Source: Acidimicrobiales bacterium
GTDB lineage: Bacteria; Actinomycetota; Acidimicrobiia; Acidimicrobiales; CADCSY01
Assembly (NCBI GenBank): GCA_030447125.1
Contig: JAUJLZ010000036.1
Location: 1 to 12,093, forward strand
Direction of reading: 5' to 3'
DNA: 12,093 nucleotides
Each line of letters begins with the position of its first letter. Position 1 is the stretch's first letter. Positions 1 through 12,093 of this stretch are shown piece after piece. The position numbers and the translations under genes were made by a program. The notes under the pieces were generated by a model, which was not told the DNA's origin, did no database searches, and worked only from the letters and a program-made list of their open reading frames with translations.

Positions 1-44
1 CTGCTTGGTTCGTTTGGTAGCCGAACAACGTCGCCACGAATCAC
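1..44 (-). CDS. MazF/PemK-type toxin, N-terminal fragment (cut by window edge)
   Basis: Only the first 14 codons are inside the window, starting at a GTG (44-42). They read V-I-R-G-D-V-V-R-L-P-N-E-P-S, which matches the start of MazF/PemK endoribonuclease toxins (RGDV-x-x-x-x-L/P). MazF toxins cleave mRNA in single-stranded regions and inhibit translation. The GTG overlaps the TGA of the upstream antitoxin as GTGA, the coupled arrangement typical of type II toxin-antitoxin pairs. The catalytic region lies outside the window, so whether the toxin is intact cannot be judged. The short fragment plus its position behind a ribbon-helix-helix gene makes the family call likely but not certain. Confidence 0.6.
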   Translation of the reverse strand, partial: MIRGDVVRLPNEPS

Positions 45-286
45 TCGACCTGGGCAGAAGGTGCTAGGGAGTCCAACAGCCGGGTGACGGGCGCCTTCTC
101 CTGTTGATCCCTTTCGTCATGGCCCAACGCCTCGACCTCGGCCATCAGTGCCTCGCGCCTCCGGCGATCCGCAACTTCGATCAGCGCCTCGCGGATGGCC
201 TGACTCCGGTTCAGTCCACCGCTTCGCTCCAAATAGCGCAACGCTTCGTCCGACTCCTCGTCGGACCGATACGAGATAGTGGTCAT
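41..286 (-). CDS. Ribbon-helix-helix (CopG/MazE-like) antitoxin
   Basis: This 81-residue protein starts at ATG 286-284. The N-terminus (TTISYRS, residues 2-8) fits the DNA-binding beta-strand. Residues 10-23 (ESDEALRYLERSGG) and 26-44 (NRSQAIREALIEVADRRRR) fit the two helices of the ribbon-helix-helix fold, with the conserved N-R-S-x-A-I-R-E-A pattern. The acidic tail (about residues 47-81) would wrap the toxin. Antitoxins of this kind neutralise the toxin and repress their own operon. The next gene is a MazF-like toxin overlapping by 4 nt. A longer reading from 451 exists, but its extra N-terminal part is Arg/Ser-rich and unlike the family, so the ATG at 286 was chosen. No clear Shine-Dalgarno sequence precedes it. 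Confidence 0.8.
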   Translation of the reverse strand: MTTISYRSDEESDEALRYLERSGGLNRSQAIREALIEVADRRRREALMAEVEALGHDERDQQEKAPVTRLLDSLAPSAQVE

Positions 287-570: not shown

Positions 571-1686
571 GTGAGGGCACAGGGACCGGTCGAGCGACAC
601 CTCCGGGCCCTCGCCTCGTACGGGCTGCCCGGCACAGGTCTCGGCTTGCCCGAGGCGCCCCTTGCCGACGACAAGTGGCAGGAGGTGTTGCACGGGTGTG
701 CTGAGCAGCGGCTACTCGGGCACCTCTGGAGCGCGGTGGCGGCCGGCGACCTCCCCACCACCTCACTGCAACGAGGCCAGGCCAAGTCCCTGGGCCTTCA
801 GGCGCTTCGTCTCTGCCTGCGCCTGGAGCAGCACCTCCTCACCGCCGTCGACGTGCTCGACCACGCTGGCCTCGATCACCGGGTACTCAAAGGGACGGCC
901 CTGGCCCACACCGCCTACCCCAGCCCGTCCCTGCGCCATTTCCGCGACATCGACCTGCTCGTCACCTCCGAGCAGTTCGCCGCCGTCGTCGACGTCCTGC
1001 TCGATATCGGCTACCACCGCCCCTGGCCGGAACCCCGCCCGGGGTTCGACCGCCGCTTCGGGAAGGGAGCGACCCTCGTGGCCCCCCAGCGTCACGAGCT
1101 GGACCTCCACCGCACGCTGGTCGACGGGCCGTTCGGGCTCAGCATCGACCTGCGCACCCTGTGGGCCCGGCCGCGTAACTTTCTGCTCGCCGGACGCACC
1201 TTGCGGGCCCTGCCCGTCGAGGCCATGGTCGTGCACGCCTGCTACCAGGTGGCGATCGGCGATGATCCGCCCCGGCTGGCAGCCATGCGCGACCTGGCCC
1301 AGCTCTTGCTCACCGTCGAGCACGATGGCTCGGCGGTACACGAGCTCGTGCTCGGCGGAAAGGCAGAGGCGGTGCTGGCCCGGGCCGTGGAGCTGACCTG
1401 GCAGGCCTTTGCCCTCGAACCCGACGAGCTGTCCCGGTGGGCCCAGTCCTACACACCCTCGGCCCGGGAGCGATGTCTCCTGGCGACCTACAGCGCAGCC
1501 CGGAGGAGCTTCGCCACCCAGTCGCTGGCCTCGCTGGTCACCATCCCCGGCGTGGTCGCCAAGGTGGAGCTGGCGCGGGCCCTGGCCCTGCCGAGTAGCG
1601 AGTTCCTGGCCCGCCGGGAAGTCTCTCGTTTGGACTGGTGGCGGCGGGGACGGCGCTCGGCTCTCGGCTCTCGGCGCCATCGATGA
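571..1686 (+). CDS. Nucleotidyltransferase family protein (PF14907-type), lasso-cluster accessory
   Basis: This is a 371-residue protein starting at GTG 571, preceded by AGGGG at 561-565. The middle carries the family's signature: LKGTALAHTAYP (residues 106-117) and FRDIDLLV (124-131). The D-x-D of the latter is the expected metal-binding pair of a DNA polymerase-beta-like nucleotidyltransferase fold. ELDLHRTL (176-183) fits the third acidic strand. The rest is helical and less conserved, and the last 20 residues are Arg-rich. Proteins of this family accompany PqqD, B2, cyclase and kinase genes in paeninodin-type lasso clusters, where their reaction is not established to my knowledge. Here it is the first gene of the + strand run, with a 91-nt gap before B1. 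A role in nucleotidylating the peptide or its phosphate is speculation. Confidence 0.8.
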   Translation: MRAQGPVERHLRALASYGLPGTGLGLPEAPLADDKWQEVLHGCAEQRLLGHLWSAVAAGDLPTTSLQRGQAKSLGLQALRLCLRLEQHLLTAVDVLDHAGLDHRVLKGTALAHTAYPSPSLRHFRDIDLLVTSEQFAAVVDVLLDIGYHRPWPEPRPGFDRRFGKGATLVAPQRHELDLHRTLVDGPFGLSIDLRTLWARPRNFLLAGRTLRALPVEAMVVHACYQVAIGDDPPRLAAMRDLAQLLLTVEHDGSAVHELVLGGKAEAVLARAVELTWQAFALEPDELSRWAQSYTPSARERCLLATYSAARRSFATQSLASLVTIPGVVAKVELARALALPSSEFLARREVSRLDWWRRGRRSALGSRRHR

Positions 1687-1777: not shown

Positions 1778-2038
1778 GTGAAGCTTGAGTTGCGAGCCGA
1801 CAAGGTCGTATGGCGGGCCCTCGACGACGAGGTGGTTGGGCTCGACCTGGAAGCGTCGCGGTACTTTCGGCTCAACGCCAGCGGCGCCTTCCTCTGGCAG
1901 CAGGTGAGCGAGGCGAAGACCCAGGACCAGTTAATCGACGCCCTGGTCGAGACCTACGGCATCGGTCGTGACCAGGCGACCCGGGACGTCCACGACTTCG
2001 TTTCCATGCTCAGCGACCGACAGTTCCTCCAGGATTGA
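1778..2038 (+). CDS. PqqD-like RiPP leader-binding protein (lasso B1)
   Basis: This is an 86-residue protein. The start is GTG 1778, chosen because a strong Shine-Dalgarno GGAGG (1768-1772) sits 5 nt upstream. Longer upstream readings in this frame (from 1409) lie inside the nucleotidyltransferase gene and are not family-like. Residues 10-35 (VVWRALDDEVVGLDLEAS then RYFRLNASG) give the beta-hairpin typical of PqqD/RiPP recognition elements, including 'LDLE...YFRLN..G..LW'. Residues 46-86 form the helical half. Stand-alone PqqD proteins bind the leader of the precursor and present it to the B2 peptidase and cyclase. It is immediately followed by B2, with the B1 stop TGA (2036-2038) overlapping a TTG that may be a coupled start. 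Confidence 0.9.
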   Translation: MKLELRADKVVWRALDDEVVGLDLEASRYFRLNASGAFLWQQVSEAKTQDQLIDALVETYGIGRDQATRDVHDFVSMLSDRQFLQD

Positions 2039-2087
2039 GGCGAACACGTCCCCGTCACCGCGGACTGCTGACCGCCGTCGAGGCCCG

Positions 2088-2549
2088 TTGGCGGCCGCCG
2101 CCAGGTTGCCGGCGGGCGACCTGCTCAGCATCGCCCGGGTGCTCGTCGTCACCACGCTCGTCGAGGTGGCCATCCGCACCGTCCCCCTTCCCCGGGTGGC
2201 ACGATGGTTGGCCGTCCCCCTCGACACGGTTGATGCCCGCCCGGCGGCACCGGCGGCCCCGCCCTCGCCGGCCTTCGACCGTTACGAGCTGCGACGCCTG
2301 CGTGCGGCGAAGCGGGTGATGGCCCGTTGGCCCTTCGGGGGAGGGCCCTGCCTGCGCCAGTCCCTGGTGGTCGGTTACCTGCTCAGGTCGCGTCACCCCG
2401 TCCTGCGCTTGGGCGTGGGCAGCGTGGACGGAACGGTCATGGCCCACGCCTGGATCGAGGTCTCGGGCACGAGCATCGGGGGCCGCGACTGGCTCTTGCC
2501 CCTGTTCACCGGCCCCGTCGACCACGGTGGAGAGCCGAGGCACGCATAG
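2088..2549 (+). CDS. Lasso peptide leader peptidase B2 (transglutaminase-like), 5' end uncertain
   Basis: This transglutaminase-core-type cysteine protease removes the precursor leader. From TTG 2088 it is 153 residues. GGGPCLRQSLVVGYLLR holds the catalytic Cys (Cys88) at the head of a helix, MAHAWIEV holds the His (His120), and GGRDW supplies a candidate Asp (Asp134). The order Cys...His...Asp is that of PF13471 proteins. GAGG (2080-2083) lies 4 nt before TTG 2088. However, the TTG at 2035 overlapping the B1 stop opens another frame reading LTAVEARWR, which looks like a natural N-terminus for this family. One missing base near 2089-2103 would join the two frames. Either the gene starts late at 2088 or the sequence carries a one-base deletion in a GC-rich hairpin there. 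Confidence 0.82.
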   Translation: MAAAARLPAGDLLSIARVLVVTTLVEVAIRTVPLPRVARWLAVPLDTVDARPAAPAAPPSPAFDRYELRRLRAAKRVMARWPFGGGPCLRQSLVVGYLLRSRHPVLRLGVGSVDGTVMAHAWIEVSGTSIGGRDWLLPLFTGPVDHGGEPRHA

Positions 2550-2621: not shown

Positions 2622-4475
2622 GTGAGCGAGCAGGCCAAGAAAACCCTCAGCGTCGAGCAGCTGTTGCGCCCGGAGCCCTCACGGCGGCTGCGCCGGCTGC
2701 CCCGCCTGGTCGCTCGGGCCATGAGCCTGGCCTGGCACGCTGCCCCCCGCGAGCTGGTCACCTCAGGGGCTCTCCAGATGGCGGCGGGCGGAGGCGTGGC
2801 CGTGCAACTCCTCGCTGGCCGCGAAGTCCTCCAGCGGGTCCTGGAGTCGGGCGAGCAGGGGAGCTTCGCCGCGGTCTTACCCGTCCTCGCGCTCCTGGCC
2901 GTGGTCACCGCCCTGGTGACGTTCGCCAACCTGGGCCGGATCGAGCAGCAGCGGATCCTGTCCGAGCTGGTGGGCCGTTACTCGGTGAACCAGGTGCTGG
3001 AGGTGGCGACCTCGGTCGATCTGCTGGCCTACGAGCGGCCCGACTTCCACGACCGCCTCCAGCGGGCACAGCTCAACGCCCAAATGCGACCGGCCCAGAT
3101 GGCCACCGGGGTGCTCGGCGTCATCAGCGCCCTGTCCGCCATCGTCGGTATCGGTGCCGCCCTGCTCTTCCTCCAGCCCGTGTTCCTCGCCTTGGTGCTG
3201 GCGGCGTACCTCCCCGCCTGGTATGCCACCACCCGAGCGAGCAAGTTGGTCTACCGCTTCTCGGTGGAGCAGACCGAGCGCGACCGACGCCGTGCCTACC
3301 TGTTCAGGCTCCTGTCCGGCAAGGAGCAGGCCAAGGAGATCCGGGCTTTCGGCCTGGCTGGCTTCCTGCGCGAGCGCCACGACCGGCTGTACGACGAGAA
3401 GATCGCCGACCTGCGCACGATGGCCAGGCGCCGGCTGCGCCTGGGCCTATTGGGTGGGCTGGCCACCTCCAGCCTGACCGCCGCCACCATCGCCGTCCTG
3501 GTGTGGTTCGTGACCACCGAGCGGATCTCCCTGGCATCGGCGGGCGCCGCCGTGGGGGCCATCGTCCTGCTCGGGCAGCGACTGAGGGGCCTCTCCTCCA
3601 GCACCGGCTCGCTCTACGAGAGCTCGTTATTCCTTGAGGACTTCACCACCTTCGTGGAATGGGTGCCCGAACTCATCGCTGCCCAACCGACAGCGGAGCC
3701 GCCCGAGGGCTTCTCCACCCTCACGGTTGACGACGTCGCCTTCACCTACCCCAGCCGCGAGGTACCCAGCCTGCGGGGGGTGTCCCTGCAGGTCCGGGCT
3801 GGGGAGATCATCGCTCTGGTGGGTGAGAACGGCTCGGGCAAGACCACCCTGGCCAAGCTCCTCGCCGGTCTCTACGCCCCTGACCGGGGCACCATCCGCT
3901 GGGACGGGGTCGACACCGCCGGCTACGACCAGGACCGGCTGCGGGCCTCGGTGGCGGTGATCTTCCAGGACTTCGTGCAGTACTACCTCACCGCTCGCGA
4001 GAACATCGCCATGGGCCGCCACGAGCACTACGACGACATGGACAGGATCGTCCAGGCCGCCCGCCAAGCCGGCGCCCACGAGTACCTGGAGTCCCTCGAC
4101 AAGGGGTACGAGACCCGCTTGGGGCCGGAGTTCTTCGGCGGCAGCGACCTCTCCGTGGGCCAGTGGCAACGGGTCGCCCTGGCCAGGGCCTTCTTTCGCG
4201 ACGCCCCCTTCATCATCCTCGATGAGCCCACCGCCGCCCTCGACCCCCGGGCGGAGTCGGAGCTCTTCGACAGCATCCGCACGCTGTGCGCCGGTCGGGC
4301 GGTGCTGTTGATCTCCCATCGCTTTTCCAGCGTCCGTTCCGCCGACCGCATCTACGTGCTGCGAGACGGCGAAGTGGCCGAGCACGGCACCCACAGCGAC
4401 CTCATGGTCGCCGACGGCCTCTACGCCGAACTGTTCAAGCTCCAGGCCTCGGCCTACGTCGAGGCACAGGCATGA
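2622..4475 (+). CDS. ABC exporter with fused permease and ATPase (lasso D)
   Basis: A 617-residue half-transporter with a membrane domain (about residues 45-345) followed by a nucleotide-binding domain. The start is GTG 2622 with AGAAGGG at 2611-2617 upstream. The ATPase motifs are complete: Walker A GENGSGKTT (401-409), Q-loop FQDF (448-451), signature SVGQWQ (511-516), Walker B IILDE (531-535) and H-loop His566. There is no N-terminal C39 peptidase domain, consistent with leader removal by the separate B2. The Q-loop context FQDFVQYYLTARENI resembles exporters commonly found in lasso clusters. It lies 72 nt after B2 and probably works as a homodimer exporting the mature peptide, conferring immunity. 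Its stop overlaps the next start as ATGA. Confidence 0.9.
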   Translation: MSEQAKKTLSVEQLLRPEPSRRLRRLPRLVARAMSLAWHAAPRELVTSGALQMAAGGGVAVQLLAGREVLQRVLESGEQGSFAAVLPVLALLAVVTALVTFANLGRIEQQRILSELVGRYSVNQVLEVATSVDLLAYERPDFHDRLQRAQLNAQMRPAQMATGVLGVISALSAIVGIGAALLFLQPVFLALVLAAYLPAWYATTRASKLVYRFSVEQTERDRRRAYLFRLLSGKEQAKEIRAFGLAGFLRERHDRLYDEKIADLRTMARRRLRLGLLGGLATSSLTAATIAVLVWFVTTERISLASAGAAVGAIVLLGQRLRGLSSSTGSLYESSLFLEDFTTFVEWVPELIAAQPTAEPPEGFSTLTVDDVAFTYPSREVPSLRGVSLQVRAGEIIALVGENGSGKTTLAKLLAGLYAPDRGTIRWDGVDTAGYDQDRLRASVAVIFQDFVQYYLTARENIAMGRHEHYDDMDRIVQAARQAGAHEYLESLDKGYETRLGPEFFGGSDLSVGQWQRVALARAFFRDAPFIILDEPTAALDPRAESELFDSIRTLCAGRAVLLISHRFSSVRSADRIYVLRDGEVAEHGTHSDLMVADGLYAELFKLQASAYVEAQA

Positions 4476-5524
4476 ACGCTGCCTTCCCAACGTTCCTCCT
4501 GAAGAGCCCTCTCGGGCAGGTCCTGCGGCCCGAGTTCCAAGCCGGGCTCGTCATCGGCCTCTTGGGGCTGGGCCTCGTCCTCCTGGCCGGTGCCCTACTC
4601 CGGCTCTCCTCGGGGCAGGGTCGTCCTCTCCCCGTCGCTGGACTGGTCGTCGTCGGCGCCGGCGTGGCCGCCCTCGCCCAGACTGACCTTCTCGCCGACA
4701 ACCTGGCCCTGGGCCTGGGCGCACTGGTCCTCGGCGGCCTGGTCGCCGACATCTCCCGTGCGGGGTGGCCGGCGACCGTGCTCCTGGCCGTGCCCGGCGC
4801 CTGGTTGACGGCCTTTGCCACCGATCTGCCTGAGGGAACCTGGATTCGTGTTGCGGTCCTGGCTGGCGTAGTCGGCGGCGGGACCCTGCTGTCCGACTTC
4901 GACGCCCGCTGGGGTCGCCGGGGCCTGGCCCCTGTGCTCTTGGCGGTGTCGATCCTGGGAATCTACGCCACCGTGCCCAGCACCGATCAGGCGCTGGTCC
5001 TGGTCGGCCTGGCGCTGCCTCTCGCCCTCACCTCGTGGCCATGGCCGGTGGCGTCTCTCGGAGTGGCCGGGTCGCTGGCCAGCTCCGGGCTGGTGGCCTG
5101 GACGATCGCGGTCGGCGGCGCCGGTCGGACCAGCTCGATCGTCGGTGGCCTGGCGTGCCTGGGCCTGCTCGTCCTCGAACCCGTCACCCGGGGCATTCGG
5201 AGGGACCGGCCCAGCGCCCTCGAGCTGCTGATCTCTCCCCGGCCCCGGTCGGTGGTAGTGATCGCCCTCGCTCACCTGGTGGTGGTGTACGTGGCTTCCC
5301 GGGTAGCCGGGTTGCGGGCGACCGTGGCAGAGGCGACGGTAATCCTCGCCGTCGAGGTCACCGTGGTGCTCGCCGTCCTGGCTCTCGGGTCTGCCGCCGC
5401 CCGAAAGCGCAGGCCCGAGTGGGACGAGGGCGATCGGGCCATCTCGCATTCCGGCCCGGAGGCGAGCAAAGATCGCGTCATCGAGAAGGCCGAGACGGCC
5501 GAGACGGCAAGGAGCGCCGGGTGA
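4472..5524 (+). CDS. Unrecognised polytopic membrane protein (about 11 TM segments)
   Basis: I do not recognise this family. The ATG at 4472 overlaps the exporter's TGA (ATGA), giving 350 residues. Hydrophobic stretches lie at about 22-44, 53-72, 77-94, 99-117, 125-140, 152-168, 173-190, 195-216, 222-238, 258-280 and 286-306. The last 40 residues are charged and soluble (RKRRPEWDEGD at 311-321), probably cytoplasmic. Loops are short and I see no catalytic motif. The context is between a peptide exporter and sugar-handling genes. This would suit an O-antigen ligase/polymerase-like or glycan-transport helper, but no signature of those families is visible, so the role is open. Translational coupling to D implies co-expression. 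A strong hairpin overlaps its stop codon. Confidence 0.75.
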   Translation: MNAAFPTFLLKSPLGQVLRPEFQAGLVIGLLGLGLVLLAGALLRLSSGQGRPLPVAGLVVVGAGVAALAQTDLLADNLALGLGALVLGGLVADISRAGWPATVLLAVPGAWLTAFATDLPEGTWIRVAVLAGVVGGGTLLSDFDARWGRRGLAPVLLAVSILGIYATVPSTDQALVLVGLALPLALTSWPWPVASLGVAGSLASSGLVAWTIAVGGAGRTSSIVGGLACLGLLVLEPVTRGIRRDRPSALELLISPRPRSVVVIALAHLVVVYVASRVAGLRATVAEATVILAVEVTVVLAVLALGSAAARKRRPEWDEGDRAISHSGPEASKDRVIEKAETAETARSAG

Positions 5525-5539: not shown

Positions 5540-6377
5540 TTGGGGAGCCCCGGTCTTCGCCGCCCAGGGCCTCCCATTTGCTCGTCCCTTCACGCCGCCG
5601 CTGGCCGATGTCGTCCGCCGGTTGGAACCGTCCTACCAGGACATGCTGACCAACGGACCCCTGGTCCGAGAGCTGGAGCACCAGGCCACCGGCCGGCTGG
5701 GGGTCAACCACGTCGTCGCTGTCTCGTCGTGCACCGTTGGGCTCGTACTCACCCTCCAGACACTCGAGCCCTCCGGCCCGGTGCTACTTCCCAGCTTCAC
5801 GTTCTCAGCCGCAGCCCACGCCATCGCCTGGAACGGACTGCGGCCGTTGTTCGACGAGTGTGGGCTCTCCTCGTTCCAGGTGGACGCCGACGACCTCGCC
5901 CGGCGGACAGACGGCGCCGGGGCCATCCTCCCCACCCAGGTCTTCGGTGCTCCCTGCGACACCGAGCGCCCGGAAGCGCTGGCTCGCTCCGCCGGCATCC
6001 CCCTGGTGCTCGATGCCGCCCACGCCCTTGGTGCCTCCCACAACGGCCGCCCCGTCGGCAACTTCGGTGCGGCCGAGGTGTTCAGCCTGAGCCCGACCAA
6101 GCTGGCGGTCGGCGGTGAAGGCGGGCTGGTGGCCACGGCCGACGCCACCCTAGCTGCGCGGCTGCGGATCGCTCGCGACTACTTCTTCCCCCCGGTGCAC
6201 CGCCAGCAGGCCTATGCCCACCTCGAGCTTGCCCACCTGCCGGTCACGGACGACGTCGCCCGCCGGGTAGTGAGCCTGTCGATCTTCGCCCGTCTGGCGC
6301 CCGGCGCCGTCGACCAGGTGGTCGAGGTGCTGGCGGGTTCGCACGCCCCCGCCGACGAGGTCGCCGCGCTCCCATGA
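5521..6377 (+). pseudogene. DegT/DnrJ/EryC1/StrS-family sugar aminotransferase, damaged (lost start and internal deletion)
   Basis: PLP-dependent sugar aminotransferases of this family make amino sugars on nucleotide carriers. The readable frame contains APVFAAQGLPFARPFTPP from about 5547, then SYQDMLTNGPLVRELE (from 5631), HVVAVSSCT, LLPSFTFSAAAHAIAWNGL, LDAAHALGA and the PLP-lysine motif SLSPTKLAVGGEGG with Lys at 6099-6101. Two defects are visible. First, this frame has no ATG/GTG/TTG before TTG 5622, well inside the conserved N-terminus. A GTG at 5521 overlapping the previous stop reads RRPALLG one frame away, so one base seems missing near 5541-5552. Second, ARLRIARDY runs directly into FFPPVHRQQAY (junction about 6177-6186). 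In full-length relatives about 100 residues separate these elements. The product is therefore about 275 residues instead of about 370 and probably inactive. Confidence 0.7.
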
Positions 6378-7540
6378 GCGAGGCCACCTCTTTAGCCGAC
6401 CCCACATCGCGCCCCGTTGGCCCGAGCCATCCCCTGCGGGTGCTGTGGTTGATCAAGGGTTTGGGACCTGGAGGGGCCGAGCACCTGCTGCTCTCCACCG
6501 CCGGGGTAGCGGACGCCCAGCGCTTCCGCTTCGAGATCGCCTACCTGCTGCCCTGGAAGACGGCGTTGGTGGAGCGGCTGGCCCAGGCAGGGGTGCCGAG
6601 CCGCTGCCTCGACGCTCCCAACGAGTGCAACCCGGCCTGGGCCCTGCGGTTGCGCCGCCTGCTCCTCGAAGAGCGCTTCGACGTGGTGCACGTCCACTCG
6701 CCCTACGTCGCCGGTGTAGCCGAGCTGGTCATGCGCTCGCTTCCCCCCGGCCGCCGGTCGCCCATGGTCACCACCGAGCACAACGTGTGGTCGTCCCACC
6801 CTCTTCCGACCCGTGTGCTCAACACCGTCACCTTCCCGCTGGCCCGGGCCCAAGTCGCGGTGTCAGGGTCGGTGCGCGACTCCATCCCCCGGCCCCTGCG
6901 TCGAAGGGTCGAGGTGGTGGTCCACGGTGTGGACGTGGAGGCCATTCAGGAGAGACGAGACGACCGCGGGCGCATCCGCGCCGAGTTGGGCGTCGGCGAC
7001 GACGAGGTGGTGGTGTGCACCATCGCCAACCTCCGCCGCCAGAAGGGCTACCCCGACCTCCTCGCCGCCGCCCGGACCGTGCTCGACGCCGGGGAGCCGG
7101 TGTTGTTCGTCATCGTGGGCCAGGGGCAGCTGGAGGGGGAGATCCGCGAGCGCCACCGCCAGCTCGGCCTCGGCGACCGGGTGCGCTTCCTCGGCTACCG
7201 CCAGGACGCCGTCAGCGTTCTCGCCGGCTCCGACGTGTTCGCCTTGGCCTCGATCCACGAGGGGTACCCCATCGCCGTCATGGAGGCCCTGTCCATGGGT
7301 GTGCCCATCGTGGCCACCAGCGTAGGAGGAGTCCCCGAAGCGGTCCGTCCGGGGCTCGATGGTTTCATCGTGCCGCCTGGTGAGCCCGGGGCCCTGGCCG
7401 AGGCCATCCTTCGCCTGGTCACCGACGCCGACATGCGCAAGCGGATGGGCGAGGCAGGCCGGGCGCGCAGCGGGCGCTACGACATCTCCCGAGCCGTCCG
7501 CCGCCTCGAGGAGATCTACGTAGACTTGGCCGCTCAGTGA
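6374..7540 (+). CDS. GT4-family glycosyltransferase
   Basis: This is a complete 388-residue retaining GT-B glycosyltransferase. The ATG at 6374 overlaps the previous TGA. The N-terminal acceptor domain starts at LRVLWLIKGLGPGGAEHLLL (21-40), with the typical GPGGAE loop. VVHVHSP (104-110) and TTEHNVWSS (133-141) are further family landmarks. The C-terminal donor domain has HGVD (184-187), NLRRQKGYPDLL (219-230), FLGYRQD (272-278) and the E-x7-E motif from Glu296 to Glu304 in HEGYPIAVMEALSMGVPIVAT. No signal peptide or membrane span is seen, so it is cytosolic or membrane-associated. The donor and acceptor cannot be told from sequence. Neighbours (sugar aminotransferase, PglK-like ABC) suggest assembly of a lipid-linked glycan or decoration of the cluster product. 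Confidence 0.9.
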   Translation: MSEATSLADPTSRPVGPSHPLRVLWLIKGLGPGGAEHLLLSTAGVADAQRFRFEIAYLLPWKTALVERLAQAGVPSRCLDAPNECNPAWALRLRRLLLEERFDVVHVHSPYVAGVAELVMRSLPPGRRSPMVTTEHNVWSSHPLPTRVLNTVTFPLARAQVAVSGSVRDSIPRPLRRRVEVVVHGVDVEAIQERRDDRGRIRAELGVGDDEVVVCTIANLRRQKGYPDLLAAARTVLDAGEPVLFVIVGQGQLEGEIRERHRQLGLGDRVRFLGYRQDAVSVLAGSDVFALASIHEGYPIAVMEALSMGVPIVATSVGGVPEAVRPGLDGFIVPPGEPGALAEAILRLVTDADMRKRMGEAGRARSGRYDISRAVRRLEEIYVDLAAQ

Positions 7541-7579: not shown

Positions 7580-7639
7580 ATGACGGCGTCCCCGGGACCT
7601 CGTTCGGGCGAGCCTCTCTTCCATGATCGCTCCTCGAGC

Positions 7640-9433
7640 ATGACCACGTTCCTGCGACGAACCTTCTCGATCCTCGACCGCCCGGCCCGGCTCCGGTTCC
7701 TCCTGTTCGCCCTGGTGTCGGTGTTCGTCGCCGCCCTGGAGGCCGTTGGGGTGTTCCTCGTCCTGCCCCTGACCCAGCTCTTGGTGCTCGTTCCCGAGGA
7801 GCCGCTCCCCCCCACGGCGCGCTTTCTGGAGGGGTTCACGGACATCTCGTCGAACAACCAGGCGGCTGCCATTCTCGCCGGTCTGGTCCTGCTCACCTTC
7901 ACGGTCAAGGCGGTGGCAGCCGTCATCCTGTTGCGCTGGGGCATCGGGACCTCGCTCAAGCAAGAGGCCCGCATCGCCCGCCGGCTCTTCGCCAGCTACC
8001 TCCGGGCACCGAGGTCCTACCACCTCAGGCGGAACTCCTCCCAGATCCAGCGCACCCTGAACGAGTCCCTGCTCCTGCTGTTCCGACGAACGGTCCCCAC
8101 CGTCATGGCCGCCGCCGCCGACTGTGTGGCGCTGATCGCCATCGCCACCGTCATCGTGATCAGCGATCCGGGAGTTGCCCTGGTGGCCATCGGCTACTTC
8201 TTGGTCGTCGGGGTCGGCTACCAGCGCCTCATCGGCGGGCGCCAGCGGGTGGCGGCAAAACAGGTCCACCAGGAGGTGGCCGAGCGCTACCGGCAGGTGC
8301 AGGAAGCGGTGCGGGCCACCAAGGAGCTGGCCGTCCTGCATCGCGAGGACTTCTTCGTCGAGCAGTTCTACGAGACCAAGCTGGAGCTGGCCGCCGCCCA
8401 GCGCCAACTGGTGGTCTTCCAGCTCATGCCCCGGCACTTCCTCGACCTGACCTTCCTGTACGGGGCGACCATGCTGGCCGGGTATGCCTTCGCCACCCGC
8501 TCACCGGCGGAGGCCCTGGCCGTCGTGGGGCTGTTCCTGGCCGCCGGCTTCCGCCTCGTCACGCCCCTCAACCGGGTCATGAGCACCTTCACCTTGGCCC
8601 GCTCCGCCCAACCGGCCCTCGACCAGGTGATGGAGGACACTGCGCTCCTCGATGCGCTCGGTCATGCCCGAGACGACGACGTGTCAACTGAGCCCCTCGA
8701 TCCCTGCGCCATCGAGCTGGTCGACGTACGGTTCCGCTACGACGGCACCGACGAGGACGTGCTCCACGACGTGTCCCTGAGCATCGGGCCTGGTGACGAT
8801 GTGGGCGTCGTGGGTTCCTCGGGCGCGGGCAAATCGACGTTGCTCGACGTGCTCCTGGGCCTGCTCGAGCCCCAGTCGGGAGTCATCACGGTCGACGGGC
8901 GGCCCATGAGTATCTGTCGGACCGGCTGGCAGCTCTCGATCGGCTACGTCCCCCAGGACATCGTGCTGATCGACGACACCATCCGGGCCAACATCGCTTT
9001 CGGCATCGCCACCGACGACGTCGACGACGGTCAGCTCCGCGAGGCGATGGGCCTGGCCCAGATCGACGCATTCGTGGCCACCCTCCCCGCCGGCCCGGAC
9101 ACTACGGTGGGCGAATTCGGGGTTCGCTTGTCCGGCGGGCAGCGCCAGCGCCTTGGCCTGGCTCGGGCGCTGTATCACCGTCCCAGCGTGCTGGTGCTCG
9201 ACGAGGCCACCTCGGCCCTCGACTCCGAGACCGAAGCACGTATCGTCGCCACCATCGCCTCCCTGCGCGGGTCGCTGACCATCATTACCGTGGCTCACCG
9301 GTTGAGCACCCTCAAGCACTGCGATCGGATCTACTTCCTGCGCGAGGGCCAGGTGGCGGCCGTCGGCGACTTCGACCAGCTCATGGCCCAGGAGCCCGAC
9401 TTCGCCCAGCTGGTATCGCTGGCCCAGCTGTAA
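7640..9433 (+). CDS. ABC transporter, PglK-like flippase/exporter (permease plus ATPase)
   Basis: The protein has 597 residues from ATG 7640. An ATG at 7580 would add 20 residues that are not family-like and precedes the likely transcription start. The permease domain spans about residues 15-335, with hydrophobic segments near 20-50, 77-100, 155-195 and 270-305. The ATPase has Walker A GSSGAGKST (392-400), Q-loop PQD (438-440), signature LSGGQRQR (497-504), Walker B VLVLDE (517-522) and H-loop His553. The N-terminal organisation and VEAVGVFLVLPLTQ-like stretch (read here as LEAVGVFLVLPLTQLL) resemble PglK-type transporters that flip lipid-linked oligosaccharides. It directly follows the glycosyltransferase, supporting glycan export. 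A second peptide exporter is the alternative. Its end overlaps the convergent cyclase gene by 53 nt. Confidence 0.85.
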   Translation: MTTFLRRTFSILDRPARLRFLLFALVSVFVAALEAVGVFLVLPLTQLLVLVPEEPLPPTARFLEGFTDISSNNQAAAILAGLVLLTFTVKAVAAVILLRWGIGTSLKQEARIARRLFASYLRAPRSYHLRRNSSQIQRTLNESLLLLFRRTVPTVMAAAADCVALIAIATVIVISDPGVALVAIGYFLVVGVGYQRLIGGRQRVAAKQVHQEVAERYRQVQEAVRATKELAVLHREDFFVEQFYETKLELAAAQRQLVVFQLMPRHFLDLTFLYGATMLAGYAFATRSPAEALAVVGLFLAAGFRLVTPLNRVMSTFTLARSAQPALDQVMEDTALLDALGHARDDDVSTEPLDPCAIELVDVRFRYDGTDEDVLHDVSLSIGPGDDVGVVGSSGAGKSTLLDVLLGLLEPQSGVITVDGRPMSICRTGWQLSIGYVPQDIVLIDDTIRANIAFGIATDDVDDGQLREAMGLAQIDAFVATLPAGPDTTVGEFGVRLSGGQRQRLGLARALYHRPSVLVLDEATSALDSETEARIVATIASLRGSLTIITVAHRLSTLKHCDRIYFLREGQVAAVGDFDQLMAQEPDFAQLVSLAQL

Positions 9434-10619
9434 GTCCCAAGCTCTCCTCCCGCGTGCCTGAAGGCTGCTGCGCCAGCCACGCTGCCTGGAGTAGGGCACT
9501 GGTGCCGGCGTTGGGCACCGGCGCCCGCCACTCCTCGCCCAGCCGCTCCGGGTCGACCAGATCGGCGTCCACCCCGCTCCCGTCCCAGGTGCGGACGAAG
9601 TCGCGGCTGTAGCGGCTGAAGACGACGCCGTTGAACGCGACCTTGTCCTGTCGCCTGATCACTTCAGGGGGAAGGAGATCGCCGAACAAGGCCGCCATGG
9701 CTGCCCGTCGGCTGGTGAAGCCGAGGCGACCGGCCAGGGGGCGAAGCGACTCGATGAAGACGGGATCGAGGAGGGGATGGACCGCGTACACGTCGGCCTC
9801 CTCGGCCAGCAGCGCCATCGTGCGGCTCCCGTACACCCAGGCCCGGCGCACGAGCAGCCGGCGCGCTCCCCCGATCCAGCTGAAGGGCTCGTCGAGGTCG
9901 TCGACCACCAGGGCCTCGACGAATGCCGCCCTCGCCTCCGGACGCAGCCACGGCTGAGGAGTGCGGGCGGTCCTCTTGCGCCGCAAGCGGGACCGGCGGA
10001 GCGGCCGGGGGCCGATCGACTCGGCCAGGAGCCGCGCCATGGGACGCCCGGGTCGTAGCTTGCCGGCCAGGGTGTGCTTGAGCGGGGTGACCCGACGGAT
10101 GCCGAAGACCTCGTCACCACCCTCGCCGTCGACGAGGGAACCACCGGCGGCGACATCGAGCAGGGGCAGGCGCCCGTACGCCGGCGGGGGCCACACCAGC
10201 CCGTGCCGACGCAGGACGGTGCTAGCCACGGGCCCCACCAGATCGAGCTCGGTGTCGAACGGGAGCCGGACCCACTCTTCGACGCCGAGGTGGCGGACCA
10301 CCAGCTCCTGCCAACGGGACTCGTCCGTCTCCGGATGCTTGGGATAGCGCTTGGTCAGCGCCACCGGAAGGGGCAGACCCTCACGCCGGGCCAGCGCCAC
10401 GACCAAGGCCAACATCGCCGAGGAGTCCCGGCCGCCGGAGAAGGCGACCACGCATGGGGTCCGCTGGAGCGCTGGCAGGAGGCTGCGCTCCAGCGCCTGG
10501 CGGGGCGAGCGGGCCCGCTCCAACTCCTCAGCCCACACCTCGTCAGCGAACACCTCGGCAGGGCGGCTCCCTGTCTCGTGGCCCGGCACCCACCCGGCGG
10601 CGACCTCGAGCGGGGCCAT
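9381..10619 (-). CDS. Lasso peptide macrolactam synthetase (asparagine-synthetase-like cyclase C), lacking the N-terminal glutaminase domain
   Basis: This enzyme should adenylate the core Asp side chain and close the ring with the core N-terminal amine. From ATG 10619 it has 412 residues: PP-loop FSGGRDSSAML (60-70), DGEGGDEVFG (164-173) and HPLLDPVFIESL (281-292), all typical of the Asn synthetase C-terminal domain. RQDKVAFNGVVF (323-334) resembles the R-x-x-K-x-x-F stretch near the end of lasso cyclases. Most cyclases are near 600 residues with a Gln-amidotransferase-like front, which is missing here: only about 55 residues precede the PP-loop. An ATG at 10679 gives 20 more residues, but it would overlap the divergent kinase start. 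MAPLEVAAGW at 10619 looks like a natural beginning. A stand-alone role in sugar or amino-acid amidation is the alternative. Confidence 0.78.
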   Translation of the reverse strand: MAPLEVAAGWVPGHETGSRPAEVFADEVWAEELERARSPRQALERSLLPALQRTPCVVAFSGGRDSSAMLALVVALARREGLPLPVALTKRYPKHPETDESRWQELVVRHLGVEEWVRLPFDTELDLVGPVASTVLRRHGLVWPPPAYGRLPLLDVAAGGSLVDGEGGDEVFGIRRVTPLKHTLAGKLRPGRPMARLLAESIGPRPLRRSRLRRKRTARTPQPWLRPEARAAFVEALVVDDLDEPFSWIGGARRLLVRRAWVYGSRTMALLAEEADVYAVHPLLDPVFIESLRPLAGRLGFTSRRAAMAALFGDLLPPEVIRRQDKVAFNGVVFSRYSRDFVRTWDGSGVDADLVDPERLGEEWRAPVPNAGTSALLQAAWLAQQPSGTREESLGLTAGPAIPAGRSRAPGP

Positions 10620-10648
10620 CCGATAGAGGCGAGCCGACACCACCGGCG

Positions 10649-10670
10649 AGTCTAGATGAGCTGCTACCTT
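10649..10670. promoter_or_regulatory. Divergent promoter region between cyclase and kinase
   Basis: The 49-nt gap holds two candidate -10 elements: TAGACT on the - strand (10654-10649) pointing at the cyclase, and extended -10 TGcTACCTT on the + strand (10662-10670) pointing at the kinase. The -35 regions are weak. If the + strand element is real, the kinase TTG at 10669 lies inside it and the true start is slightly downstream. Confidence 0.25.
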
Positions 10671-11652
10671 GCCGCCCATCCCGCTCGAGGATCACGACAT
10701 TCCCCTGTACGAGCTGCACGGCCTGCGACTCCGCTCCGAGGTCCCCCTGGCCGGCTTCGCCCTCGGGACCGGGAGCCACGATGTGGTCGTCCGGGTGCGA
10801 GCGGTGCGAGCGGTGCCTGCGGGCGCGCCGCGGGGCGAGGTCATCGTCGACAACGTCGCCTCCGGGAAGCGCTGGTACGTGGCTTGCGACGACGGGGAGC
10901 GCTTCACGCTGCGGGTGCCCGGGATCTGCGACTTCGTCATCGCCTCCGACCTCACCTCGGTGGCGTGCCATCCGGCGCCGGGTACCGACCTCGGCCTGGT
11001 GTCGGTGCTCGTGGCCGGGCTCGTCGTCGCCTTTGTGCTCTCCCTCGCCGGCCAATGCGTGCTCCACGCCAGCGCCGTGGAGGCCGACGGCGGATTGATC
11101 GCCTTCACCGGTCACTCGGGGGCAGGGAAGTCCACCATGGCGGCACTGGCGTGCGGTGCCGGAGCGCTCTTGGTGACCGACGACCTGCTACGCCTGGATG
11201 TGGGAGAGGCGATCTACTGCGTGGGCGGGGGGCCCCAGCTCAGGCTCCGGCCCAAGGCCCGGTCGGTGGTCGGTCACTTCGCTGATCGGCCCGGCGTCTC
11301 GGAGACCGCCGACGGCCGCCTGGCGCTAGCACCAGCGACGTCTCCAAGGCGACGAACGCCACTCAGGTGCATCGTTGTGCCGCGGCCGTCCCGCGATGCC
11401 ATCGTGGTCAGCGTGCGCCGGCTGCGACCCGCCGACGCCGTCTTCCGGCTGGCGGGATTTCCCCGCATCCTCGGCTGGCGCCGCCAATCGATTTTGCGCC
11501 GCCAGTTCGAGGTGCTGACCTGCCTGGCCGCCCAGGTGCCCCTTGTCGAGGCCGACATCCCGTGGGGGCCCCCGTTCGACCCCGGAATCGTCCCCTCCCT
11601 ACTGCAGCTCCTGGCCGAGGAGGCGACGTCGGAGCGTCCACCTTGCACATGA
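10669..11652 (+). CDS. HPr-kinase-like kinase of lasso cluster (precursor Ser kinase candidate)
   Basis: The protein has 327 residues from TTG 10669, the only conventional start upstream of conserved sequence (a TGA closes the frame at 10657). YELHGLRLRSEVPLAG (14-29) is the usual N-terminal strand region of lasso-associated HPr-kinase homologues. LHASAV (132-137) precedes Walker A TGHSGAGKST (147-156), and VTDDLLRLD (169-177) supplies the acidic pair of the HprK/P-loop kinase fold. Homologues in paeninodin-type clusters phosphorylate the C-terminal Ser of the precursor. The precursor found just downstream ends in Ser, which fits. The gene is divergent from the cyclase and convergent with the precursor gene. 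The exact N-terminus is uncertain because a possible -10 element overlaps the TTG; a non-standard start at ATT 10699 behind GAGGA is conceivable. Confidence 0.85.
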   Translation: MPPIPLEDHDIPLYELHGLRLRSEVPLAGFALGTGSHDVVVRVRAVRAVPAGAPRGEVIVDNVASGKRWYVACDDGERFTLRVPGICDFVIASDLTSVACHPAPGTDLGLVSVLVAGLVVAFVLSLAGQCVLHASAVEADGGLIAFTGHSGAGKSTMAALACGAGALLVTDDLLRLDVGEAIYCVGGGPQLRLRPKARSVVGHFADRPGVSETADGRLALAPATSPRRRTPLRCIVVPRPSRDAIVVSVRRLRPADAVFRLAGFPRILGWRRQSILRRQFEVLTCLAAQVPLVEADIPWGPPFDPGIVPSLLQLLAEEATSERPPCT

Positions 11653-11659
11653 GGGGAAA

Positions 11660-11696
11660 ACGAGAAAGGACCGGGCGGACCCGGCCCTTGTCTCGT
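11660..11696. terminator. Bidirectional hairpin terminator between kinase and precursor
   Basis: ACGAGA-AAGGACCGGG (11660-11675), loop CGGA (11676-11679), CCCGGCCCTT-G-TCTCGT (11680-11696). The stem has 15 pairs with one A-C mismatch (11670/11685) and one bulged G (11690). It begins 8 nt after the kinase stop and ends 12 nt before the precursor stop on the opposite strand, so it can serve both genes. U-rich tracts are weak, as is common in high-GC actinobacteria. Confidence 0.75.
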
Positions 11697-11707: not shown

Positions 11708-11839
11708 TCAGGAGAACGTGAGGTCCTCCTGTGGCGTCCCCGCAGGAAAAGCGTCGTCGGTTCTGTCGCCAACCATGGAGGCTTGGGTGAGCCCGGCGAC
11801 GGACCCGGCATCGGTCAGGCTTGGTGAACGGTACTCCAT
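11708..11839 (-). CDS. Lasso peptide precursor (A), predicted
   Basis: This is a 43-residue peptide from ATG 11839-11837, with AGGGGA about 10 nt upstream. The leader (residues 1-19) reads YRSPSLTDAGSVAGLT from Tyr3, matching the lasso leader pattern Y-x-x-P-x-L-x-x-x-G...T: Tyr3, Pro6, Leu8, Gly12, Thr18. Thr18 is the penultimate leader residue required by B2. Cleavage after Gln19 frees a 24-residue core beginning ASMVGDRTDD. Ala1 and Asp9 would form a nine-member ring. The tail reads AFPAGTPQEDLTFS and ends in Ser. Ring size, the AF after the ring Asp region, the acidic tail and the terminal Ser recall paeninodin. A reading from 11896 adds 19 Arg/Pro-rich residues that are not leader-like. 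The gene is convergent to the kinase and transcribed alone. No mass data are available; the call rests on motif and context. Confidence 0.85.
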   Translation of the reverse strand: MEYRSPSLTDAGSVAGLTQASMVGDRTDDAFPAGTPQEDLTFS

Positions 11840-11902
11840 GTCTTTCCATCCCCTTGGTTCGGGGCCCGCCGCGCGAACCCGTGGACGTTCCTGCACAGCA
11901 AA

Positions 11903-12093
11903 TCACGTTTGCGCCCTCTGACGCAAGTACCTGATCGCCTGCCAGCAGCGCTCACTTGATCTCCCGGACGAGCACGAATGCCTCGGCCGCCAGACACCCG
12001 ACCGCACCTGGGCGGCTGGGCGCTCGCGCACGGGGCGAGTGATCATGCCCGCCTGGCAGAAGCGACAGCCCCGGGTGCAACCCCGAAAGACCT
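11903..12093 (-). pseudogene. Truncated B12-binding radical SAM protein (TIGR03960-like), 5' part outside window
   Basis: Reading in from the right edge, the frame gives VFRGCTRGCRFCQAGM followed by ITRPVRERPAAQVR (down to about 12002). CTRGCRFC contains the CxxxCxxC cluster-binding cysteines, and the surrounding residues match the TIGR03960 group of YgiQ-like, B12-binding-domain radical SAM proteins. After QVR the frame continues as unrelated Ser/Arg-rich sequence to a TGA at 11905-11903, so nearly all of the SAM barrel is absent. This family is normally found in translation/ribosome-related neighbourhoods, not in lasso clusters. I therefore read it as a chromosomal gene broken at the border of the lasso locus. 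The part outside the window may be longer or also decayed. Confidence 0.65.

Follow-up and report, generated by a model that had tools for sequence, protein, structure and literature searches.

A probable precursor gene of a kinase-type lasso peptide on an Acidimicrobiales contig

Lasso peptide precursors have a leader of the form YxxPxL...G...T and a core that begins with Gly or Ala and has Asp or Glu at positions 7-9. Some are accompanied by a kinase that phosphorylates the C-terminal Ser and a nucleotidyltransferase that places hexose onto the phosphate, according to the accessible portions of two reviews (PMC9266682, PMC8498205). The kinase BsfK, in the available part of PMC10368454, phosphorylates core Ser3 and has the motif H148-G163-G166-G168-K169-S170-D186-D187. 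Published lasso clusters already include examples in which kinase, nucleotidyltransferase and adjoining glycosyltransferase genes occur together (accessible portion of PMC7533575). Here we analyse a stretch of 12,093 nucleotides from an Acidimicrobiales contig, called the window in what follows. We conclude, with a probability of about 0.92, that positions 11708-11839 of its minus strand are the precursor gene (A) of a kinase-type lasso peptide.

The ORF has 43 codons, with its ATG at 11839 and its stop at 11710-11708, and its translation, MEYRSPSLTDAGSVAGLTQASMVGDRTDDAFPAGTPQEDLTFS, divides into the leader MEYRSPSLTDAGSVAGLTQ and the core ASMVGDRTDDAFPAGTPQEDLTFS. A sequence-only reading of this DNA had interpreted it as a lasso precursor, and our analysis supports that interpretation. 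The leader residues it listed, Tyr3, Pro6, Leu8, Gly12 and Thr18, are present exactly in the translation, as are the N-terminal Ala and Asp9 that it gave for the core, and the product fits the lasso precursor pattern (YxxPxL...G...T leader, Ala1, Asp9). Absent from that reading were the C-terminal Ser, a cyclase without the N-terminal amidotransferase-like domain, and a family with a conserved 24-residue core. Features of the window are collected in Table 1.

Table 1. Features of the precursor gene and its neighbours in the window
Feature	Coordinates	Strand	Basis
Nucleotidyltransferase N	571..1686	+	PF14907 98.5 bits, cut-off 31.2
B1 / RRE, PqqD domain; gene start upstream of given coordinates	1829..2038	+	Domain profile match
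B2 leader peptidase ORF; true start probably internal	1968..2549	+	NF033537 57.2 bits, cut-off 33
ABC exporter, assigned D	2622..4475	+	Domain profiles, position after B2
GT4 glycosyltransferase, possible tailoring or glycan gene	6374..7540	+	Domain profiles
Second ABC transporter	7580..9433	+	Highest NCBIfam score with HepA family model, well under cut-off
Lasso cyclase C, Asn-synthase domain only	9381..10679	-	Domain profile, structure matches
HprK-like lasso kinase K; H133, G148, G151, G153, K154, S155, D171, D172	10669..11652	+	Profiles, aligned motif
Terminator-like hairpin between convergent A and kinase genes, U-run on A side	11666..11689	-	Folding and terminator scan
Lasso precursor gene A, 43 aa	11708..11839	-	Translation, relatives, profile scores
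Core peptide, 24 aa, ASMVGDRTDDAFPAGTPQEDLTFS; predicted ring Ala1-Asp9 and predicted modified Ser24	11711..11782	-	Translation, family counts
Leader peptide, residues 1-19, end Thr-Gln (Thr at -2), predicted cut site	11783..11839	-	Translation and relatives
Purine-rich stretch GGGGATGGAAAG, ribosome-binding-site position	11842..11853	-	Read directly

The frame of gene A also offers an upstream GTG start, giving a 62-aa form. This form is disfavoured: GGGGATGGAAAG lies just 5′ of the ATG, and the relatives mostly begin a few residues before Tyr. Beyond the stop, the hairpin and its U-run fold at -33 kcal/mol (z -5.13). The terminator scan gave two terminator-like matches against 0.5 expected, with a match at 11689-11666.

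An ORF this short, in GC-rich DNA, could fit the leader pattern by chance alone, and its scores lie under the curated NCBIfam precursor cut-offs (15.9 bits against 19 for lasso_leader_L3, NF033521; 17.9 bits against 33 for lasso_cyano, NF033528), which are a database criterion and not a defining trait of the lasso class. We reject this explanation, which we consider extremely improbable, because of the shuffles and a held-out profile. The profile was built from eleven relatives, excluding the window ORF and its close relative P0002. It scored the window ORF (62-aa form) at 54.1 bits and the next ORF of the window at 1.5 bits; the best score among 17,866 ORFs from 100 dinucleotide-shuffled windows was 9.4 bits. 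The leader-plus-core pattern had no match in 300 dinucleotide shuffles. The existence of a 95% identical relative and the terminator-like hairpin after the stop also speak against chance, as do the related loci, where leader-pattern ORFs adjoin the same kind of genes. In 72 of 79 related loci such an ORF is found no more than 1.5 kb from the cyclase match; the density is 0.39 per kb inside that distance against 0.013 per kb farther off. The sequence-only reading had set its case against two possibilities, that related clusters lack a homologous short ORF with the same leader and that a better precursor lies elsewhere. Short ORFs fitting the same leader pattern were found beside homologous cyclases in those 72 loci, and neither the leader pattern nor the held-out profile found a second, better precursor in the window.

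A direct search found one protein, P0002, 95% identical, which keeps the whole leader and differs at core residues 3 and 7 alone. A further search, by a 13-sequence profile, matched 185 proteins at E<=0.01, 120 of them listed, and among the matches listed several from Amycolatopsis, Prauserella, Pseudonocardia, Actinophytocola and Haloechinothrix are named lasso RiPP precursors by NCBI. The claim that such a gene is missed by ordinary gene calling therefore holds in general only in part. We examined 121 sequences: the window's, P0002 and 119 others among the matches listed (185 in all). The leader pattern fits 120 of the 121, the exception being P0236. Core position 1 in these 120 is Gly (101) or Ala (19), Asp9 is present in all 120, and the core has 24 residues in 110; a C-terminal Ser is found in 115 and the ending DLTFS in 90, while core residues 2 and 3 are variable. 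Because the search profile is biased toward similar cores, these counts describe the family and do not prove constraint. Among leader-pattern ORFs near cyclases, 78 of 90 end in Ser.

In a sample of 396 genomes from Actinomycetota, the phylum of genome G003 (which holds locus L012), only G003 matched at E<=1e-8, so the family looks uncommon in this phylum, on a first-pass screen that may miss some members. A plasmid of Paracoccus sp. MC1862 (L088) encodes the core GNSRGSALDNTFQAGTPVSQLTFS, followed downstream by PqqD, B2, a 632-aa cyclase, a serine kinase and an ABC protein. This cluster is flanked by genes for a nucleotidyltransferase, glycosyltransferases, an O-antigen ligase, a sugar transferase and a GNVR protein. 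A conjugative Nostoc plasmid (L089 9989-10135, plus strand) encodes an LTFS-tail precursor with the core GLKDGSALDKDFPTGTPRGKLTFS; no lasso enzyme genes are listed within 10 kb of it in a gene table that is incomplete. The two plasmid cores agree in their length of 24 residues, in Asp9, in GT at 15-16 and in the LTFS tail. The 24-residue core of the family is more uniform than would be required by a kinase that is said to read little beyond the C-terminal Ser (accessible portion of PMC8498205). Provided that this constancy is genuine and does not just reflect the search, it suggests a common target or partner. Our literature search, made mostly among papers open without subscription, found no published account of an LTFS-tail core family across phyla, and no lasso-peptide paper on the DLTFS motif as judged by title; the accessible portion of PMC5974421 had nothing on the subject.

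Other arrangements of leader-pattern ORFs were seen in the related loci. Tandem, different precursors occur at L025 9594-9916 and likewise in L028, L030, L045, L050, L056 and L058; one precursor of each pair has a DLTFS tail and the other ends in YS or FS, with two cyclases per locus. L002 encodes two precursors (1655-1825 and 2001-2174, plus strand) that end in RLSF, not LTFS. The core of the first has Ala1, Gly5, Asp9 and PAGT13-16 in common with the window's; the second is similar, with AQ beginning after the Thr. Seven tandem small ORFs of L076 (6364-7113, minus strand) combine lasso-type leaders with very short cores; a single-domain cyclase lies about 3 kb away. Very short leader-pattern precursors of 31-39 aa (e.g. 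...VEDLTETIIIVAQGETS) adjoin single-domain cyclases at L039 11164-11259, L040 6151-6442, L053 11169-11264, L071 5009-5110, L077 11176-11295 and L079 6206-6313. No tblastn match to B2 was found at these six loci, and these precursors may represent a separate class of peptide that shares this leader and cyclase.

The window contains every enzyme gene that had been claimed to lie beside A (B1, B2, C, D, kinase and nucleotidyltransferase), with one reservation about C. B1 scores 61.3 bits against PF05402 (cut-off 23.4) and falls below cut-off with two lasso-specific models (47.1 bits of 70 and 41.5 of 80). The ABC exporter is taken as D because it comes after B2. The reservation is that no GATase domain was matched by domain profiles across the 432 aa of C; a control cyclase (L012 13879-15807) does match GATase_7. 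This N-terminal amidotransferase-like domain is common in other C proteins, and it is not needed for the class definition. A shorter start near 10619 would give a C protein of 412 aa, the form used in database entry P0003. C scores 27.2 bits with the nearest lasso/macrolactam model (cut-off 300), and its relatives are nearly all in Actinomycetota records. Structure comparison with Foldseek was weak (top match TM 0.37), and a second comparison gave synthetase-domain matches. C may be a minimal lasso cyclase; no published account of single-domain lasso cyclases as a class was found in the same largely non-subscription literature.

The third catalytic residue of B2 is Asp. Cys103 and His135 are kept in 46 of 46 B2 sequences, and the window has Gly at a position occupied by Asp in 40 of the 46, with an Asp three residues on. 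The absence of the usual Asp would suit a real lasso precursor stranded in a decaying, non-working cluster, its product not made or incompletely tailored. So would two damaged genes. The DegT/DnrJ aminotransferase at 5622-6377 (plus strand) is without about 100 internal residues, its two parts matching 2po3 residues 48-229 and 326-379, and the missing stretch is either an in-frame internal gap or an assembly fault. At 12002-12091 (minus strand) a TIGR03960 radical-SAM fragment (profile positions 258-287 of 605) breaks off about 160 bases upstream of A, as though the cluster had been inserted into or next to a radical-SAM gene; the window ends there. We consider decay very unlikely. Neither damaged gene belongs to the lasso core; the reading frames of A, B1, B2, C, D, K and N are uninterrupted, and K retains its invariant residues and B2 its Cys and His; and the B2 proteins of L002, L062, L055 and L061 likewise have Gly in the Asp column. 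The left edge of the window (41-286, minus strand) has a weak MazE-like antitoxin match, 17.0 bits against a cut-off of 65.

In an alignment of 59 kinase sequences (the window's and those of 58 loci), H133, G153, K154, D171 and D172 are invariant; 57 of the sequences have G148, 54 have G151 and 52 have S155. The spacing of this motif is the same as in BsfK. A His just before the P-loop was also considered as the catalytic His and rejected: that pattern matched 2 of 58 loci, and the aligned invariant His is 133. Sequence comparison of K with solved structures stayed at chance level (best match 1ko7, an HPr kinase, E 0.87).

Since BsfK acts on core Ser3, a ring residue, core Ser2, is an alternative site in the window peptide, and the same catalytic motif in BsfK (available part of PMC10368454) lends this some weight. 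Core residues 2 and 3 vary across the family, however, and the terminal Ser recurs both in the family and in ORFs near cyclases at the frequencies given above (115/120 and 78/90), so we regard the ring site as unlikely. By analogy with the described lasso kinases, K very probably phosphorylates Ser24. The presence of a kinase and a nucleotidyltransferase in one cluster suggests both phosphate and hexose on the C-terminal Ser; for the hexose we see an even chance.

The product of gene A, read as the precursor of a kinase-type lasso peptide, would be processed as follows, on the pattern described for paeninodin and pseudomycoidin (PMC9266682, PMC8498205); the genes and their conservation are observed, and the steps are predicted from those systems. 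B1, the RRE protein, would bind the YxxPxL leader, and K would phosphorylate Ser24 of the linear precursor. B2 would remove the leader by cutting behind Gln19 (Thr at -2). C, with its single domain, would adenylate Asp9 and link it to the Ala1 amino group so that the tail is trapped, and D would export the product. N may put a hexose on the phosphate. A specific product was said to be predictable, and exact masses could indeed be computed: 2509.107 Da unmodified, 2589.073 Da with one phosphate and 2751.126 Da with phosphate and one hexose.

The cluster has further neighbours. The best solved-structure matches of the second ABC transporter are multidrug-type transporters. Polysaccharide-type genes near the family, in the window, at L025 and on the Paracoccus plasmid, are suggestive only. 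We put forward, as a rather unlikely proposal, that the GT..xLTFS peptides are one near-constant lasso family, spanning at least three phyla, partly plasmid-borne and using two cyclase architectures, whose C-terminal Ser phosphate anchors a longer glycan built by the neighbouring genes. If this were true, the cluster would make a lasso-capped or lasso-anchored polysaccharide and not a free antibiotic. The gene sets concerned would be GT4, DegT and the second ABC transporter in the window; a pyruvyl transferase, a GHMP kinase, an SIS/HAD protein and a GT4, the sugar-type genes seen beside the Amycolatopsis L025 cluster; and the O-antigen ligase, sugar transferase and GNVR protein of the Paracoccus plasmid.

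The association was counted in a tblastn neighbour table of 79 loci, ten of them with DLTFS precursors (L001, L012, L025, L028, L030, L032, L045, L050, L056 and L058); L049, with an ELTYS tail and a 25-residue core, was counted among the other 69. Matches to the window's GT4 were found at 7 of the 10 against 18 of the 69, to the nucleotidyltransferase at 9 against 25 and to the kinase at 10 against 48. Amycolatopsis, Pseudonocardia and Prauserella are one family. The link between DLTFS and GT4 is not independent evidence, because 8 of the 10 loci belong to these genera and resemble one another in gene order, and some of the contigs are short. GT4 genes also adjoin the cyclase at L047, whose precursor is without a DLTFS tail. 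No polysaccharide gene set was found in the ORFs scanned at L012 and L049 (8 of 16 and 4 of 8 called ORFs), which gave only nucleotidyltransferases, a longer cyclase, a sulfotransferase and a hydrolase. Neither the window's ORF 4286-5524 (a membrane protein, trimmed) nor DegT was matched at E<=1e-4 in any of the 79 loci.

The window had been called paeninodin-type. The kinase motif and the C-terminal Ser fit that type as it is described in the reviews, but the cyclase has a single domain. Paeninodin, from Paenibacillus dendritiformis, likewise combines lasso genes with an HprK-like kinase bearing His-Lys-Asp-Asp and a core that ends in Ser (accessible portions of PMC9266682 and PMC8498205). 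Compared with this description, the window is probably actinobacterial, its cyclase has a single domain, and K lies head to head with C, between C and A. Pseudomycoidin, from Bacillus pseudomycoides, also has a kinase (PsmK) and a nucleotidyltransferase (PsmN) in one lasso cluster, as given in the same portions of those two papers. GT4, DegT and the second ABC transporter are extra in the window, PsmN being compared by description. The bsf cluster of Bradymonas sediminis has the same kinase motif and spacing and the set A, B1, B2, C, D, kinase and nucleotidyltransferase; BsfA, unlike the window's A, has a C-terminal Asp and Ile at -2, and it receives its phosphate on core Ser3 (available part of PMC10368454). 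The NCBI-named precursors of Amycolatopsis and Prauserella have, like the window's, a 24-residue core, Asp9, GT at 15-16 in nearly all and a DLTFS tail, and the loci seen also have a short cyclase, a kinase and a nucleotidyltransferase nearby. They differ from the window in sequence (about 44-49% identity between precursors), and seven of their loci hold a second, different precursor alongside.
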